A DNA stretch of 52,766 nucleotides from the NCBI GenBank assembly GCA_021817785.1, contig JAKAFY010000010.1, forward strand, positions 1 through 52,766. Direction: 5' to 3'. This DNA comes from a bacterium (GTDB taxonomy: Bacteria > Patescibacteriota > Microgenomatia > UBA10105 > UBA927). Both the position numbers and the translations under genes were made by a program. The notes under the pieces were generated by a model. The model searched no databases, was not told where the DNA came from, and saw nothing but the letters and a program-made list of their open reading frames with translations. Positions 2,653 through 26,553 of this stretch are shown one piece after another (positions within the stretch are counted from its first letter, which is position 1; the number at the start of each line of letters is the position of its first letter).

Positions 2653-4386
2653 ATGAATCATAGTATGGTCTCTACTGCCCAAGATATCCTCGAGGCGCTG
2701 GTGTCGGCAAATACATTGCCGGCAGACGCCGCTGAACGCATCCGCACCGAGTCGTTAAATACCGGTGAATCCGTGGAGGCATTGCTCCAAAAAAAACATC
2801 TCGTATCCGATGAGGATTATGCCCGTGCCCGTGCGAGTACGCTGGGCATTCCGTTTATTACCCTATCGGGCCAGGCCATAAGCCCCGATGTCGTTAATTT
2901 TATCCCCGAGCCCGTTGCCCGTCGGTATACCCTGGTGCCGTTTCAGATAGACGGCGGAGAAAAAGGCGCTTTATCCATTGCGATGGTAGATCCCCTGGAT
3001 TTTCAGGTGATCGAATTTCTGGAAAAAAAGTCCGGTCGTGCCGTCAAGCCGTTTATGGCGATGAAGGACGACATCACGGGAGCCATCGAGGAATTGTATA
3101 CACAGAATTTGGGCGCGGACGTAAGTGCGGCGCTCGAGGAAAGCGCCCCGGCCATCAAAACGTACGAAGCCGGCAGGTTGGGGGAAGTCATACGGGAGGC
3201 TCCCATCGCCCAGATCGTGTCTGCCATATTGGAACAGGCCATACGGCTGCGCGCATCCGACGTTCATATCGAGCCGCTTATCGGCGAGACACGCGTGCGA
3301 TACCGAGTCGACGGCATATTGCAGGAGCGGTTGATGCTCCCCCACCGCTTGCAGGATGCCGTGGTGTCGCGGATCAAAATACTGGCGGACATGAAAATAG
3401 ATGAAAAGCGTATCCCCCAGGACGGACGGTTTAATTTCAAAATGGGAGAATCGGAAGTAGACCTTCGTGTCTCCACACTTCCGACCGTACACGGGGAAAA
3501 GGTCGTCATGCGGTTGCTCAAAAAATCCGGAGGGATTCCGACGCTGCCCGAACTGGGACTTCGCGGATTGGCATTAAAGCACCTGCAAACGGCCATCCTC
3601 AGGCCGCATGGCATCATATTGGTTACCGGCCCTACCGGAAGCGGAAAAACGACGACGCTGTATGCTGTTTTGGCCATCCTCAATAACGCAAAAGTGAATA
3701 TCATGACGCTGGAAGACCCGGTCGAATACGAGATGCCGGGGATAAACCAGGTGCAGATAAACCCCGCAGCAGGACTGACGTTTTCTACCGGGTTACGGTC
3801 GTTTCTGCGGCAGGACCCCAATATCATCCTGGTCGGAGAAATCCGGGATACTGAAACGACGGAGCTGGCTATTCAGGCGGCGCTGACCGGGCACTTGGTA
3901 TTTTCCACGCTGCACACCAACAATGCAGCAGGCGCAATCCCGCGTCTTATAGATTTGGGAGCGGAGCCATTTTTGGTCGCATCGGCGCTTAATGCCATGG
4001 TGGGTCAGCGTATCGCGCGCAGACTCTGTCCCACGTGCAAGGAAGAATACACGCCGACGCCGGAAGTACTTACTGATATGAAATCCGTCGTCGGTGAGTT
4101 ATGGCCGGCGGATAAACCGATGGTACTCTATAAAGGGAAAGGGACAGTGAACGGCGCTCCGTGTGAATCCTGCGGAGGAAGCGGATATCTCGGACGTCTG
4201 GGCGTGTTTGAAGTGTTTCCCATAACGGACGAAATCAGCAAGCTGACGCTTACCCGTGCGCCGATGAAAGACATAGAGCGGCAGGCCGTAAAAGAAGGCA
4301 TGATTACCATGAAACAGGATGGATATCTGAAAGCGCTGGAGGGGGCAACAACGATAGAAGAAGTATTGCGCGTCGCACAGGATTAA
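2653..4386 (+). CDS. pilB: Type IV pilus assembly ATPase PilB/GspE family
   Basis: 577 aa; Walker A GPTGSGKTTTLYAVL, Walker B/Asp-box, CPTCKEEY...CESCGGSGYLGRLGVFEVF zinc motif, MshEN-like N-terminus. Confidence 0.95.
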   Translation: MNHSMVSTAQDILEALVSANTLPADAAERIRTESLNTGESVEALLQKKHLVSDEDYARARASTLGIPFITLSGQAISPDVVNFIPEPVARRYTLVPFQIDGGEKGALSIAMVDPLDFQVIEFLEKKSGRAVKPFMAMKDDITGAIEELYTQNLGADVSAALEESAPAIKTYEAGRLGEVIREAPIAQIVSAILEQAIRLRASDVHIEPLIGETRVRYRVDGILQERLMLPHRLQDAVVSRIKILADMKIDEKRIPQDGRFNFKMGESEVDLRVSTLPTVHGEKVVMRLLKKSGGIPTLPELGLRGLALKHLQTAILRPHGIILVTGPTGSGKTTTLYAVLAILNNAKVNIMTLEDPVEYEMPGINQVQINPAAGLTFSTGLRSFLRQDPNIILVGEIRDTETTELAIQAALTGHLVFSTLHTNNAAGAIPRLIDLGAEPFLVASALNAMVGQRIARRLCPTCKEEYTPTPEVLTDMKSVVGELWPADKPMVLYKGKGTVNGAPCESCGGSGYLGRLGVFEVFPITDEISKLTLTRAPMKDIERQAVKEGMITMKQDGYLKALEGATTIEEVLRVAQD

Positions 4387-4458
4387 CGGGACACGGGGAA
4401 CCAACGCGTGCGGTGTTTGGCATTCGTTATGTTCGCTGTGCTCGTGTATAGTTATATT

Positions 4459-5520
4459 ATGATGGATATACAACATCTCTTTGCTGAGGCATCGCGGAAA
4501 GAAGCATCGGATCTGCATCTTATATCCGCGTTTCCGCCGATGCTGCGGTTGGCCGGCATGCTGGTACCTGTGGAAGGCACGGTTGCGTTAACCAGTGACG
4601 AGACACAGACGCTTATAGACAGTACGCTGAGTCCCGAGCAAAAAGAAATATTTTCGACCAACAAGGAAATAGACTATTCGCTCGCCACGCCGGTTGGGAG
4701 ATTCCGGGTAAATGCCTATGTGCAAAAAGGATCCGCCGCCGCAGCATTTCGTTTGATACCGGAACGCATCAAAACGCTCGAAGAGTTGGGTCTACCGGCC
4801 ATATGCGGGGAATTTGTCAAGTTACGGCAGGGCCTGATATTAGTTACCGGCCCTACGGGGCACGGAAAATCAACGACGTTGGCGTCGATGATCAACATCA
4901 TCAATCAGGGAAAAAATGTCCACATCGTAACCATTGAAGACCCGATCGAATACGTCTACCCCGTCGGCCGGGCGATGGTATCGCAGCGGGAAATGCATGG
5001 AGACACGCACTCGTGGAATGTCGCCCTGCGCAGTGTTCTCCGGGAGGACCCTGACGTCGTGCTCGTCGGAGAAATGCGGGATTTCGAAACCATACAATCG
5101 GCGATAACCATTGCTGAAACCGGACACTTGGTGTTTGCCACGCTGCATACAAATTCCGCAGCACAGTCGATAGACCGTATCGTAGACGTGTTTCCGGAAA
5201 ACCAGCAAATACAGATCCGTTTGCAATTGTCCAATGTACTGGAGGGCATCCTCTCACAGCGCCTGGTGCCGGCCCTATCCGGCGGACGCATACCCGCCAC
5301 CGAAATATTGACGGCAACGCCGGCAATCCGGACGCTGGTCCGGGAGGGAAAAACGCACCAGATTGACAATATCATCCAGACTTCTGCGGAATTCGGCATG
5401 ATGACGTTGGAAACGTCGCTCGCCGCTGCGGTAAAGGCAGGGACGATCGGGTTGGATGTCGCGGTATCGTTTGCGCTTCGGCCGGAAGAACTGGGCCGGC
5501 TTCTGAAAACGACGGTGTAA
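4459..5520 (+). CDS. pilT: Type IV pilus retraction ATPase PilT
   Basis: ORF 4408..5520; likely start MMDIQHLFAEASRKEASDLHL; GPTGHGKSTTLASMI, AIRTLVREGKTHQIDNIIQTSAEFGMMTLE. Confidence 0.93.
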   Translation: MMDIQHLFAEASRKEASDLHLISAFPPMLRLAGMLVPVEGTVALTSDETQTLIDSTLSPEQKEIFSTNKEIDYSLATPVGRFRVNAYVQKGSAAAAFRLIPERIKTLEELGLPAICGEFVKLRQGLILVTGPTGHGKSTTLASMINIINQGKNVHIVTIEDPIEYVYPVGRAMVSQREMHGDTHSWNVALRSVLREDPDVVLVGEMRDFETIQSAITIAETGHLVFATLHTNSAAQSIDRIVDVFPENQQIQIRLQLSNVLEGILSQRLVPALSGGRIPATEILTATPAIRTLVREGKTHQIDNIIQTSAEFGMMTLETSLAAAVKAGTIGLDVAVSFALRPEELGRLLKTTV

Positions 5521-22677: not shown

Positions 22678-23871
22678 TTATTTAATTATTTTAACAGCTT
22701 TTCTGCCGAGTTCAACTGTGTCGCCAGCATGCAATGTGTCTTTGTATGTTTGCACGAGTTTCCCGTTTATTTTAACTGCGTGCTGTTCCACTTGACGTTT
22801 GGCTTCGGAACGGCTGGAAACTATGCCGGCCCCGACGAGCACTTCAACGATTGTTGCACTTGTTTTGAGGTTGTGCAGTGATAATTGCGGAAGCGTGGAC
22901 GCATCCAGATCCTTTTTTTGGAATCTAGTTTCGAATTCTTTTTGTGCTTCTTTTGCATCTTTTTCAGTATTAAATTGTTTGGTAAGTTCAAATGCTAAAA
23001 GTTTTTTAAACGCCATGGGGTTCTCCCCTACCTCCATCGCAGTTTTCATAGTGGTGATTTCATCATCCGGTAGATCGGTTAACAAGGTAAAACATGGAAT
23101 AATCGCGTCATCCCCGAGTGACATGATTTTTCCGAAGAAATCAGACGGTGCATCGGTAAGGCCGATGGCATTCCCTTCAGTTTTGCCGATTTTGACGCCC
23201 TTGGCATCCGCAAGTAGCGGCACGGTCATAACGAATTTTTCCCTTCCCTGCATTGCGGAAACCAGTTGCCGGCCTGCGAGCATGTTAAATGCCTGATCAG
23301 TGCCTCCCATTTCCACATCAACATTCATAGCAACGGAGTCGTAGCCCTGAAGCAGCGGATACATAAACTCCCGGAGATTAATGGTTTCTCCCCGCTTCAT
23401 GCGCTCCTGATACATGTCCCGTTCGATAAGCTGCTGAACGGAAAAATTCTGCGCGATGTTTAATATATCAACTAACGTGAGTTTGTTCAGCCAGTCGCTG
23501 TTGTAGAGAATTTCGACCGGATTATCCCCGTCAAACCGTACGATTTTACCTGCCTGCTTTACATAATCAACCGCGTTTGCGCGTAATTCTTCGCGGCTCA
23601 TAAATTTCCCGCGCGCTTTCATTTTGCCGGACGGATCGCCTGCCTGCCCGGTGCCGTCACCGATAAGAAATATCACGTGATGTCCAAGATCCTGCCATTC
23701 CCGGAGTTTCCGCATGGCCACAGCGTGTCCTATGTGAAGCTGTGTGCCTGTCGGGTCAAAGCCCTGGTACAGGCGCAACTTTTTTCCACTACGGAGCACT
23801 TTCTCCAATGCTTCTCGTGAGGGATAAATCGTATCCACTCCCCTCGTCAGTAAATGTGTAATGCTATCCAT
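22678..23871 (-). CDS. tyrS: Tyrosyl-tRNA synthetase
   Basis: 397 aa; YQGFDPTGTQLHIGHAVAMRKL (HIGH), VGKTEGNAIGL region, C-terminal S4 domain. Confidence 0.96.
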   Translation of the reverse strand: MDSITHLLTRGVDTIYPSREALEKVLRSGKKLRLYQGFDPTGTQLHIGHAVAMRKLREWQDLGHHVIFLIGDGTGQAGDPSGKMKARGKFMSREELRANAVDYVKQAGKIVRFDGDNPVEILYNSDWLNKLTLVDILNIAQNFSVQQLIERDMYQERMKRGETINLREFMYPLLQGYDSVAMNVDVEMGGTDQAFNMLAGRQLVSAMQGREKFVMTVPLLADAKGVKIGKTEGNAIGLTDAPSDFFGKIMSLGDDAIIPCFTLLTDLPDDEITTMKTAMEVGENPMAFKKLLAFELTKQFNTEKDAKEAQKEFETRFQKKDLDASTLPQLSLHNLKTSATIVEVLVGAGIVSSRSEAKRQVEQHAVKINGKLVQTYKDTLHAGDTVELGRKAVKIIK

Positions 23872-23895: not shown

Positions 23896-25002
23896 TTAGC
23901 CTGCGCCATGCTCTATTGCTTGCCTGAGATCCCTAATGATATCTTGTACATGATCCAGGCCGATTGATAAACGAAATAGGTGATCGGTTGGTCGTTGTAA
24001 TACAGGTACGATGGAATTATCCATCATTGTTGATGGCTGTTGTATAAGTGTTTCTGTTCCTCCGAACGAGTGTGCAATATGAATGAAACGTAATGCTGTT
24101 ATAAAGCGATGAGGGTCTATATTTTTATGAAGGATAAATGATACTAATACGCCTTTTCCACACATTTGCGATTTACGTATGTGTTCTTCTATATTGTTAA
24201 ATGATCCAGGTGTCATAACCGAGGATATATGTGGATTATGAAGAAGCCATTTTGATACCCGCATGGCATTTTGTTGTTGTGCATGTATCCGTAAAGCGGC
24301 TGTTTTTAATCCGCGCAGGATTAGGGAACATTCCCATGGGCTTAAAACAGGACCTATTGTTTGTATAATTGATCGAAGTTGCTTTTCTATTGACGCATTA
24401 TCCGTTCCAATAAAACCACCAAGTGCGTCACTATGACCGTTCAGTGCTTTTGTAAGGCTTTCAACCACGATATCAGCACCCAATGATATCGGTTGTTGCA
24501 CTATACCCGAGCACATTGTCGTGTCTACAACAACGATTGATTTTCGAGTGTGCGCGGCTTGAGCTATGTTTTTGATGTCGATGACGCGCAAGCTTGGATT
24601 TGTAGGTGTTTCGATCCATATCATAGTTGGGGAATTGTTTCGGAGTTCGCGCAGCACGTCCGCGCGATTGTTAAAGTCACAGCTAATACTACGGATCCCG
24701 AACTTTGACAGAAGGGAATGGAATATTCGTCTCGTCCCATCATATAGTTCTGTATGATGTACTATCGTCGATCCTGCTGAGAGTAGAAGGCAAATAGACA
24801 CAATGGCAGATGACCCAGAAGATGTGACAAATCCAGCGTTTGTTTTATGCACTCGTGCGAGTTCTTCCTCTAGCGCTTGCCGTGTTCTATTTCCAATTCT
24901 TCCGTACTGAAGTCCGCTATCAGTTGAAGGCGTATTCATGGAAAAAATAACGGATGTGTGAATTGGTATGGTTAGATCGCCGTCCGGGCTTATTGGTTTC
25001 AT
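23896..25002 (-). CDS. Cys/Met-metabolism PLP-dependent enzyme (MetB/MetC/MGL-type fold)
   Basis: ORF 23896..25044; likely start MKPISPDGDLTIPIHTSVIF; PLP lysine motif VESLTKALNGHSDALGG; ETPTNPSLRVIDI. Confidence 0.88.
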   Translation of the reverse strand: MKPISPDGDLTIPIHTSVIFSMNTPSTDSGLQYGRIGNRTRQALEEELARVHKTNAGFVTSSGSSAIVSICLLLSAGSTIVHHTELYDGTRRIFHSLLSKFGIRSISCDFNNRADVLRELRNNSPTMIWIETPTNPSLRVIDIKNIAQAAHTRKSIVVVDTTMCSGIVQQPISLGADIVVESLTKALNGHSDALGGFIGTDNASIEKQLRSIIQTIGPVLSPWECSLILRGLKTAALRIHAQQQNAMRVSKWLLHNPHISSVMTPGSFNNIEEHIRKSQMCGKGVLVSFILHKNIDPHRFITALRFIHIAHSFGGTETLIQQPSTMMDNSIVPVLQRPTDHLFRLSIGLDHVQDIIRDLRQAIEHGAG

Positions 25003-25934
25003 GACTCCTCCCTTTTGGTCAGAACAATATTGTGCCGGAAGCATAGTAATGGTGGTATATGGCTATCAGCACCAAACCTGCTTTTCATATCACTAATAGA
25101 AAAACCAAGGGAGTTCCAATGATGGATATGATCTCCTAGTCTTCTAAACCACTCGCCATGGCCATTTCCATCTTCGCCAAATACAACGAATCCGTCTGGT
25201 TGTTCTATTTCAAGCAGATTTCCGCGATGAATTTCCATGCGATCGCCGAACTCGCGTTTAAATTGAGCAAGGTCATAAATTCTTGAACGTAATGCATCCG
25301 TTACTGGACCAAGACGATTTATTCTGTGTCCAGTCATTGGTGTAATAATCCGGTTTGGTGACGTCTGAAGTAATTCACTGGTTGAGATGTTTACAATAGA
25401 CGCGCCTCCAGGTTTAAGGATGCGAGACGTCTCTTTGTCTATTTCTCGATCTATGGCCGGGGGACAACAGTTCCCTGTGTGATCTCGGATAACGAGGTCG
25501 ATTGATGCATCGGGCAACTGGGTGTGTCTGGCATCAAGTAAGTGGGGTATAACATGTCCCCATGACCGTTCTTGTTTTAGCTTTGATACACTAGCGATAA
25601 TATCAGGATCAATGTCAACGATATGAAACGTTTTAAAAATAGTTTTTAGGGCACTTGATATAAATCTATGCGTGTCCTCTGCACCGTCTATGTTCGCAAG
25701 ACCCAACATAGCAACATTAATAGGATGGCCATTGATCCGCTCAGCGAGCGCATGAATACCGGGCATTTCTGATAATAATTTCAAATTTACCCCAACGGGA
25801 GGCGTTTTATTTAGGATCTCATGGGATAACCCCTCCTTTTCCATTTGCGCTCTTGTTTCTTCGTACTTGCTCGTTCCTCGTAAGCCTCTGCCGAATTCTT
25901 GACCCAAAGCGTCAGAAATTTCATTATTTTTCAT
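24999..25934 (-). CDS. SAM-dependent class I methyltransferase-like protein
   Basis: 311 aa; INVAMLGLANIDG..., FHIVDIDPDII, PDASIDLVIRDHTG, SRILKPGGASIVNIS; 4-nt overlap with the PLP enzyme start. Confidence 0.7.
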   Translation of the reverse strand: MKNNEISDALGQEFGRGLRGTSKYEETRAQMEKEGLSHEILNKTPPVGVNLKLLSEMPGIHALAERINGHPINVAMLGLANIDGAEDTHRFISSALKTIFKTFHIVDIDPDIIASVSKLKQERSWGHVIPHLLDARHTQLPDASIDLVIRDHTGNCCPPAIDREIDKETSRILKPGGASIVNISTSELLQTSPNRIITPMTGHRINRLGPVTDALRSRIYDLAQFKREFGDRMEIHRGNLLEIEQPDGFVVFGEDGNGHGEWFRRLGDHIHHWNSLGFSISDMKSRFGADSHIPPLLCFRHNIVLTKREES

Positions 25935-25972
25935 AAATATACCTCCTCTCCGCGTTAACAGTAAAACACGGG

Positions 25973-26057
25973 TGCTAAGGGGAGGATTCGAACCTCCGTA
26001 GCCCTGTAGGGCAGCTGTTTTACAGACAGCCGCAGTTGACCTCTTTGCTACCTCAGC
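25973..26057 (-). tRNA. tRNA-Tyr (GTA), class II long variable arm
   Basis: GCTGAGG...CTGTCTGTAAAACAG (anticodon GTA)...CTACGGAGGTTCGAATCCTCCCCTTAGCA; acceptor pairs GCTGAGG/CCTTAGC, discriminator A. Confidence 0.95.
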
Positions 26058-26138
26058 AAACTCCGCCTTCGCTAAAGCTTCGGCGGATTGATGGTTGGTA
26101 AACTCCTGAATATGAATTCATTCGTTAACCAACACATC

Positions 26139-26193
26139 AAAAAAACACCCTTGCACGCCTCCCAGAATTATCTGAGAAACATACAAGGGTGTT
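26139..26193 (-). terminator. Regulated intrinsic terminator of the Tyr T-box leader
   Basis: Minus strand AACACCCTTG...CAAGGGTGTT followed by a T-run; overlaps the 3' arm of the antiterminator. Confidence 0.9.
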
Positions 26194-26530
26194 TCAAAAC
26201 ACGGTACCACCTTGTTTTGCTAAAATTTGTTCTGATGTTTTAAAACATCAGAACATTGTTAATGGAACATTTTCTCCATTAAAAATCCCGCCGGGGCGGG
26301 ATAATCGTAGCCTCGTTTGTGAGCTCTGCTACCTGCGACACTCACATTCTGCTATTACGGGCTTACCCGGATTGGTTTACTAGCGTTTCAACCGTTCTGC
26401 TTGGGAGGGTATTTCAAAAAAGAAAATTCGGCAAGTCTTGCATCAAACGCTTGCTTTCTTTGTGTCACTTTTCTCTTTTTACTTCGTCTCCGTCACTGCA
26501 TTTCCTATTCACTTGTTGACGGTTACTATA
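26184..26530 (-). promoter_or_regulatory. T-box riboswitch (tyrosine-specific by context)
   Basis: Minus strand antiterminator CAAGG-[TGGTACC]-GTGTTT-TG-AAACAC-CCTTG (26214-26184), mutually exclusive terminator, AGTA/GAA specifier-loop elements and candidate UAC specifier at 26411-26409. Confidence 0.93.
26229..26254. repeat. Palindromic repeat copy 2 (inside T-box leader)
   Basis: GTTCTGATGTTTTAAAACATCAGAAC, perfect palindrome. Confidence 0.75.
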
Positions 26531-26553
26531 TCATAATTTGTCAAAAACGTCAA
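26525..26553 (-). promoter_or_regulatory. Promoter of the Tyr T-box operon
   Basis: Minus strand TTGACG - 17 nt - TATAGT. Confidence 0.7.

Follow-up and report, generated by a model that had tools for sequence, protein, structure and literature searches.

A tyrosine-poor gene pair encoding a methyltransferase-like protein and a PLP enzyme, located between tRNA-Tyr and tyrS behind a probable T-box in a Patescibacteria genome

The stretch of DNA analysed here (the window, 52,766 nucleotides) was contig 35 of a 1.28 Mb assembly. An operon was identified on its minus strand, in the order tyrosine T-box, terminator, tRNA-Tyr, methyltransferase-like (MTase) gene, PLP gene and tyrS, with the following features:

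26525..26553, minus strand: candidate promoter TTGACG - 17 - TATAGT with TG before the -10 (consensus scan only, 10/12 matches)
26182..26505, minus strand: T-box leader, specifier UAC (GAAA-UAC-CCUCC), core AAGGUGGUACCGUG (RF00230, 79.4 bits, E 1.6e-17)
26146..26191, minus strand: intrinsic terminator of the T-box, 5' arm ACCCUUGU (terminator scan, folding)
25970..26058, minus strand: tRNA-Tyr (GTA) with long variable arm and discriminator A (ARAGORN; RF00005, 57.1 bits)
24999..25934, minus strand: MTase gene, 311 aa, 2 Tyr in all (ORF, Pfam profile)
23896..25002, minus strand: Cys/Met-metabolism-type PLP gene, 368 aa, 2 Tyr in all (ORF, Pfam profile)
22678..23871, minus strand: tyrS, bacterial type (KIGKT) (profile match), the sole TyrRS found in the genome

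The original prediction, made from the window's letters, had placed two ORFs between tRNA-Tyr and tyrS and had them translationally coupled through an ATGA overlap; ORFs, location and coupling all held. The likely start ATG of the PLP gene (25002-25000), preceded by a GGAGGAG Shine-Dalgarno read from the sequence, overlaps the stop TGA of the MTase gene (25001-24999) as ATGA. The 382-aa PLP ORF from 25044 is 14 codons too long, and the likely protein has 368 aa. An internal terminator separating the pair would have refuted the prediction; terminator-like sites were searched on the operon strand from the tRNA to tyrS and none was found. Promoter-like sites in the region did not exceed the count in shuffles by consensus scan.

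A single tyrosine T-box over the operon had also been proposed, and this is supported by sequence. The window leader falls below the Rfam gathering cut-off for RF00230 (93 bits), while the orthologous leaders of G005 and G001 scored 94.7 and 93.8 bits. Its T-box features were present, namely the UAC at the specifier position (GAAAUACCCUCC), the core AAGGUGGUACC and a strong terminator with a folding energy of -47 kcal/mol (z -10), and the terminator 5' arm could alternatively pair with the antiterminator ACAAGG, a pairing read from the sequence. The UGGU core of the leader matches the ACCA end of tRNA-Tyr, whose gene ends at the discriminator A, CCA being assumed to be added. A UAC specifier was seen in 18/19 examined leaders preceding tyrosine operons of the class. 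T-box regulation of the operon is thus likely and well supported by sequence, while T-box function, the response to uncharged tRNA-Tyr and expression in starvation are inferred. As a separate observation, the tRNA behind the tyrosine T-box of G002 (L019:4305-4462) has the anticodon loop CGGTTAG, read as Asn GTT with U33 lost, together with a tandem copy of the 5' half, giving a hint of a decayed gene or an assembly error.

The MTase matched Methyltransf_11 in Pfam with 27.8 bits (E 4e-6; cut-off 21.2 bits), and seven of eight MTase members matched Methyltransf_25 at E <= 0.1. The acidic residue following strand 2 is retained, the conserved motifs are RDHxxNCCPP, GHGEWFR and DSHxPPLxCxRH, and the Cys, His and Asp motifs are invariant. 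The GxGxG criterion for a SAM loop was not met, the window protein having LGLANIDG and the alignment only the first and last Gly invariant. The name methyltransferase, as originally given, is therefore refined to a fold-level label: the profile match was met, while the glycine-rich SAM loop is degenerate. A PDB profile search with the MTase gave methyltransferase matches, weak ones (E 0.017), and a structure prediction from a three-sequence alignment only reached pLDDT 36. tRNA modification by the MTase is possible and cannot be excluded, yet it would leave the PLP enzyme unexplained.

The PLP enzyme matched Cys_Met_Meta_PP (PF01053) with 330.8 bits (E 1e-98; cut-off 27). It resembles the cystathionine gamma-lyase and methionine gamma-lyase family in fold, catalytic Lys, both active-site Tyr and carboxylate Arg; the Asp is conserved too, and the two Tyr of the window enzyme are both active-site residues. 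It differs in that the PLP enzymes of the pair form a separate clade, diverge at the specificity position and reach no NCBIfam subfamily cut-off; among the equivalogs for cystathionine gamma-lyase, gamma-synthase, beta-lyase and methionine gamma-lyase the best score was 265.5 bits against 549.7 bits required. At the specificity position the pair has His or Gln (His in the window) and homologues have Glu or Val/Ile, so an unusual substrate is likely, as judged from sequence alone. Some PLP lyases with cystathionine beta-lyase activity, such as MalY, racemise many amino acids (PMC5845896); by analogy, conversion of D-Tyr to L-Tyr by the PLP enzyme is conceivable, though no more than a possibility. 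Tyrosine phenol-lyase was considered and rejected, Beta_elim_lyase being absent from the Pfam matches at E <= 0.1.

The pair was found in eight of 374 genomes of the class, belonging to three families, every time in the order MTase-PLP-TyrRS (the trio), with gaps of -41 to +47 nt. It adjoins three TyrRS types (KIGKT, KMSKS and archaeal-type), and a T-box is present at four of the eight loci. In the window's genus it occurs in the window and in the congeners G002 and G005, which are the public Gottesmanbacteria MAGs JACRMP01 and JAHFKN01. A class-wide profile search with the MTase revealed it in G258 (family f9), with a T-box and a KMSKS TyrRS, and in four genomes of family f7 (G279, G120, G290 and G147), where it lacks a T-box and stands by an archaeal-type TyrRS in a different neighbourhood; G087 has a distant MTase relative standing alone. 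The original prediction was to be refuted by pairs occurring elsewhere without tyrS or T-box and without co-regulation: the pair does occur without the T-box, in f7, and it was never found away from a TyrRS gene in the 374 class genomes.

The PLP profile search matched 34 genomes, the eight trio members with 532-569 bits and the others with at most 410, and the trio PLPs form one clade (support 100/99). The MTase tree, with the distant G087 as outgroup, is long-branched, and its congruence with the PLP tree could be checked only for the f7 clade; the eight pair sequences share ancestry. Sampling 380 genomes across the phylum yielded no further pairs. Among 84,980 species genomes, the MTase matched none and the PLP alignment only the two Gottesmanbacteria JAHFKN01 and JACRMP01. 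Archaeal-type TyrRS is already known in Microgenomates (PMC5370408), and its link to the MTase-PLP pair was not found in the literature searched. In each examined trio genome the operon holds the single TyrRS-like gene, and one further class I W/Y synthetase lies at another locus; the window's genome has two such further genes, both TrpRS-type, the TrpRS identity having been checked for this genome alone. Since the trio's TyrRS appears to be the sole copy, a genetic-code expansion of the pylTSBCD kind was set aside, and for anti-phage defence PADLOC gave no match.

The place occupied by the pair is itself variable, and this slot with alternative cargos, a refinement of the original prediction, counts as a finding as much as the pair does. 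Across the genus, the slot keeps PBP on one side and tyrS followed by recG on the other. PBP identity between G001 and G004 is 97% and TyrRS identity 72%, and G001 has a T-box, tRNA-Tyr and two cargo genes in the slot while G004 has none of these, so the locus is clearly a hotspot. Both KIGKT and KMSKS TyrRS types occur in the genus (48% vs 67-78% identity), the type has been swapped within it, and the pair was found with both. The window's genome groups with G006 in PBP and recG (86% and 78%), its TyrRS is closest to that of G001 (78% vs 67%), and its cargo groups with G002 and G005. On visual comparison, the window's TyrRS resembles the KMSKS-type G002/G005 enzymes and that of G006 in its C-terminal S4 region (22678-22930) but comes nearest to G001 in its catalytic domain, which makes recombination inside tyrS possible. 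A survey of 24 genomes of the window's family gave these slot contents:

MTase and PLP enzyme: window, G002, G005
Another SAM methyltransferase and a MetE-like protein: G001
Asp/Glu-racemase-family proteins: G018, G016, G023, with a seemingly frameshifted copy in G014
HisC-like aminotransferases: G017, G008, G012
Orphan family: G009, G011 (twice), G023, G022, probably G017
Nothing recognisable: G004, G006, G013, G019, G021; short ORFs only in G020

The orphan family also stands behind tyrosine T-boxes in further families, and it is homologous to ORF1 of the tRNA-Trp/TrpRS-A operon (hhalign E 2e-7). Evidence that this ORF1-like cargo resembles TyrRS fell short, the Pfam match reaching E 0.025 and a profile comparison with TyrRS giving no significant score.

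Several other tyrosine operons are worth recording. In G011 (L074:1201-5348) two ORF1-like proteins flank tRNA-Tyr on both sides in the same operon as a full tyrS, together with a truncated TyrRS paralogue without the S4 domain. In G127 (L122:2596-3108) an aminoacyl-tRNA editing-domain protein (PF04073) behind a tyrosine T-box sits between an ORF1-like gene and an archaeal-type TyrRS. The operon at G017 L072 has the aminotransferase, a nucleotidyltransferase/HEPN-like gene pair and a type-B tyrS, with a 26-codon remnant of a type-A tyrS as trace of synthetase replacement. The tyrosine T-box operon of G064 (L120:116-7742) has tRNA-Tyr, a 605-aa unknown, a GH10-like protein, an ORF1-like protein and a B3/4-TyrRS fusion, and both the 605-aa unknown and the GH10-like protein have about 0.6% Tyr.

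The original impression by eye that the pair is more AT-rich than its surroundings held: its GC is 42.9% vs 51.1% for the window, it is the AT-richest stretch there, and just 0.4% of equal-length windows are this low. GC at codon position 3 is 34-38% in the pair, 49% in tyrS and 60-63% in the flanking recG and PBP. The pair of G002 and G005 has 48-50% GC, near that of its flanks, so the originally suggested acquisition is supported as plausible for the window's lineage, though it is inferred from composition.

The proteins in the slot were found to be purged of tyrosine. Tyr content is 0.64% in the MTases, 0.67% in the PLPs, 1.0% in the orphan family, 0.15% in the racemases and about 1% in the aminotransferases, while Phe content of the cargo is normal; Tyr is the most depleted residue in 5/5 cargo classes, and enrichment is seen for His and Cys, whose codons differ from those of Tyr by a single base. 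For a background of 132 proteins (>= 250 aa) the mean is 3.01% Tyr and the 5th percentile 1.42%. Only two of the 132 are as Tyr-low as the cargo, both from the G064 tyrosine T-box operon, and the next-lowest is the MetE-like cargo of G001. Nucleotide composition fails to explain the low content, about 15 Tyr being expected in the pair and 4 seen. The 21 PLP homologues at other loci of the same class have 2.1-5.2% Tyr with no overlap with the trio (p 2e-5, uncorrected for phylogeny). At three alignment columns 86-100% of these homologues carry Tyr and almost every trio member carries another residue, whereas both active-site Tyr are invariant throughout. The MTase relative in G087, outside tyrosine operons, has 2.7% Tyr. 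Formal p values overstate the evidence because the sequences are related, yet five different protein families share the trend.

Biosynthetic enzymes are known for a low cognate bias (PMC4209129), and this could be calibrated on genes under other T-boxes, assigned by reading their sequences. At G009 L054 a T-box precedes proBA, and this ProB has no proline (0.0%) in 214 residues; ProA has 1.8% Pro vs 4.7%. ArgH, under other T-boxes of the same family, has 2.4-3.3% Arg vs 5.1%, and a phosphatase-like gene before serS has 2.6-4.2% Ser vs 6.1%. The Ile, Val, Gly, Asp and Pro synthetases under T-boxes show little cognate avoidance. SerRS in a serine T-box operon is serine-poor (3-4% vs 6.1%), so the avoidance extends beyond biosynthetic enzymes. 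The GH10-like protein of G064 is Tyr-poor and hardly Tyr-making; purging may therefore mark any starvation-expressed gene.

Since T-box regulation, TyrRS linkage and tyrosine purging coincide, it is very probable that the cell makes the pair for tyrosine starvation and uses it then, with the expression itself inferred. The anatomy, the leader, the exclusive TyrRS linkage and the purging are shown; tyrosine as the product is inferred, and the substrate and reaction are unidentified. On balance, the explanation that fits best is a tyrosine-starvation module whose most likely task would be tyrosine supply, and it is favoured by a modest margin. Under this supply reading, uncharged tRNA-Tyr would bind the T-box via UAC and its ACCA end, the antiterminator would form, and a single transcript would then give tRNA-Tyr, MTase-like protein, PLP enzyme and TyrRS. 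The two enzymes, translatable with almost no tyrosine, would generate or free L-tyrosine from a scavenged precursor, the PLP enzyme performing the step that forms or releases the amino acid, on a substrate prepared by the MTase-like protein. Supply is the simplest reading because tyrosine T-boxes elsewhere drive Tyr-making enzymes and the slot-mates include aminotransferases and racemases. Against it stand the facts that no cargo is an established tyrosine-making enzyme, that no reaction is known and that the f7 copies have no T-box. The original suggestion of amino acid synthesis or modification by the pair upon a drop in charged tRNA-Tyr is supported by sequence, its chemistry being unproven. 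A bolder reading takes the pair as an undescribed L-tyrosine route, one of several interchangeable "tyrosine rescue" cassettes moving through a single T-box slot in Patescibacteria; the balance leans slightly against it.

It remains possible that the pair answers starvation without supplying tyrosine, through sparing or degradation of a metabolite, protection or adjustment of TyrRS or tRNA-Tyr, or Cys/Met/SAM remodelling. Linkage and purging would be equally expected in this case, both enzyme families nominally belong to sulfur amino acid and SAM metabolism, the counterpart pair in G001 is a SAM methyltransferase with a MetE-like protein, and a GH10-like protein is among the Tyr-poor cargo. 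On the other side, known biosynthetic T-box genes of these genomes likewise avoid their cognate residue, and aminotransferase and racemase cargo suits amino acid supply.

The two remaining explanations are weaker. The pair might make a Tyr-derived or TyrRS-inhibiting compound in specialised metabolism, the TyrRS types being resistance variants. The gene content resembles that of indolmycin-type clusters, in which a methyltransferase, a PLP enzyme and a synthetase are found together, and the swapping of TyrRS type within the genus would fit. It is unlikely, however, for the single TyrRS-like gene in the examined trio genomes leaves no housekeeping TyrRS, no transporter or further biosynthetic gene is there, and no reason for tyrosine purging is given. 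The originally raised option of hitchhiking, in which a recombination hotspot between tRNA-Tyr and tyrS would have taken up genes with no connection to the operon, gains from the hotspot seen in the slot difference of G001 and G004, but it is contradicted by the linkage to three TyrRS types and by purging, and is very unlikely: the pair stays by TyrRS in three families with differing neighbourhoods, the slot cargo is mostly amino-acid-related, and Tyr was purged although AT-richness favours Tyr codons.

The locus can be described as an amino-acid operon of the T-box kind in which the enzyme pair is undescribed and its function inferred. Firmicutes T-box operons, such as tyrS and those of the B. 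cereus group, where tyrosine T-boxes drive tyrosine synthesis including Phe hydroxylase (PMC2494555), likewise put a synthetase and amino-acid enzymes under antitermination by uncharged tRNA-Tyr; here, in contrast, the tRNA-Tyr gene lies inside the operon, the host is a member of the Patescibacteria, and an MTase-like protein and Cys/Met-type PLP enzyme replace known tyrosine enzymes. The Enterococcus durans tyramine cluster (PMC3315439) also has a UAC T-box tyrS adjoining a tyrosine-metabolising PLP enzyme, but its T-box covers tyrS only and the decarboxylase is induced by tyrosine, whereas here the enzymes are downstream of the T-box.

The locus bears on the open question of how Patescibacteria, with their tiny size and poor biosynthetic capacity, manage when amino acids are lacking, and it contributes a defined gene pair for which regulation, linkage and residue composition alike indicate tyrosine shortage. 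Unknown genes can be linked to a particular amino acid by their avoidance of that residue, and a single operon slot was seen to be filled anew with cassettes unrelated to one another, among them relatives of the ORF1 family so far described from tryptophan operons. The Microgenomates operon of ORF1, TrpRS-A and tRNA-Trp(A73) (Mukai et al. 2017, PMC5370408) is alike in joining a tRNA, an orphan protein devoid of the cognate amino acid and a synthetase, and the ORF1 family has tyrosine relatives in the slot; the present locus differs in its T-box, in tyrosine as the cognate amino acid, and in having an MTase and a PLP enzyme that show no relation to ORF1. The window's genome itself has, on contig 27 (L128:5122-6063 and 3995-5125), an apparent cluster of ORF1, TrpRS-A and TrpRS as described by Mukai et al. 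(2017), and its ORF1 and TrpRS-A have zero tryptophan.
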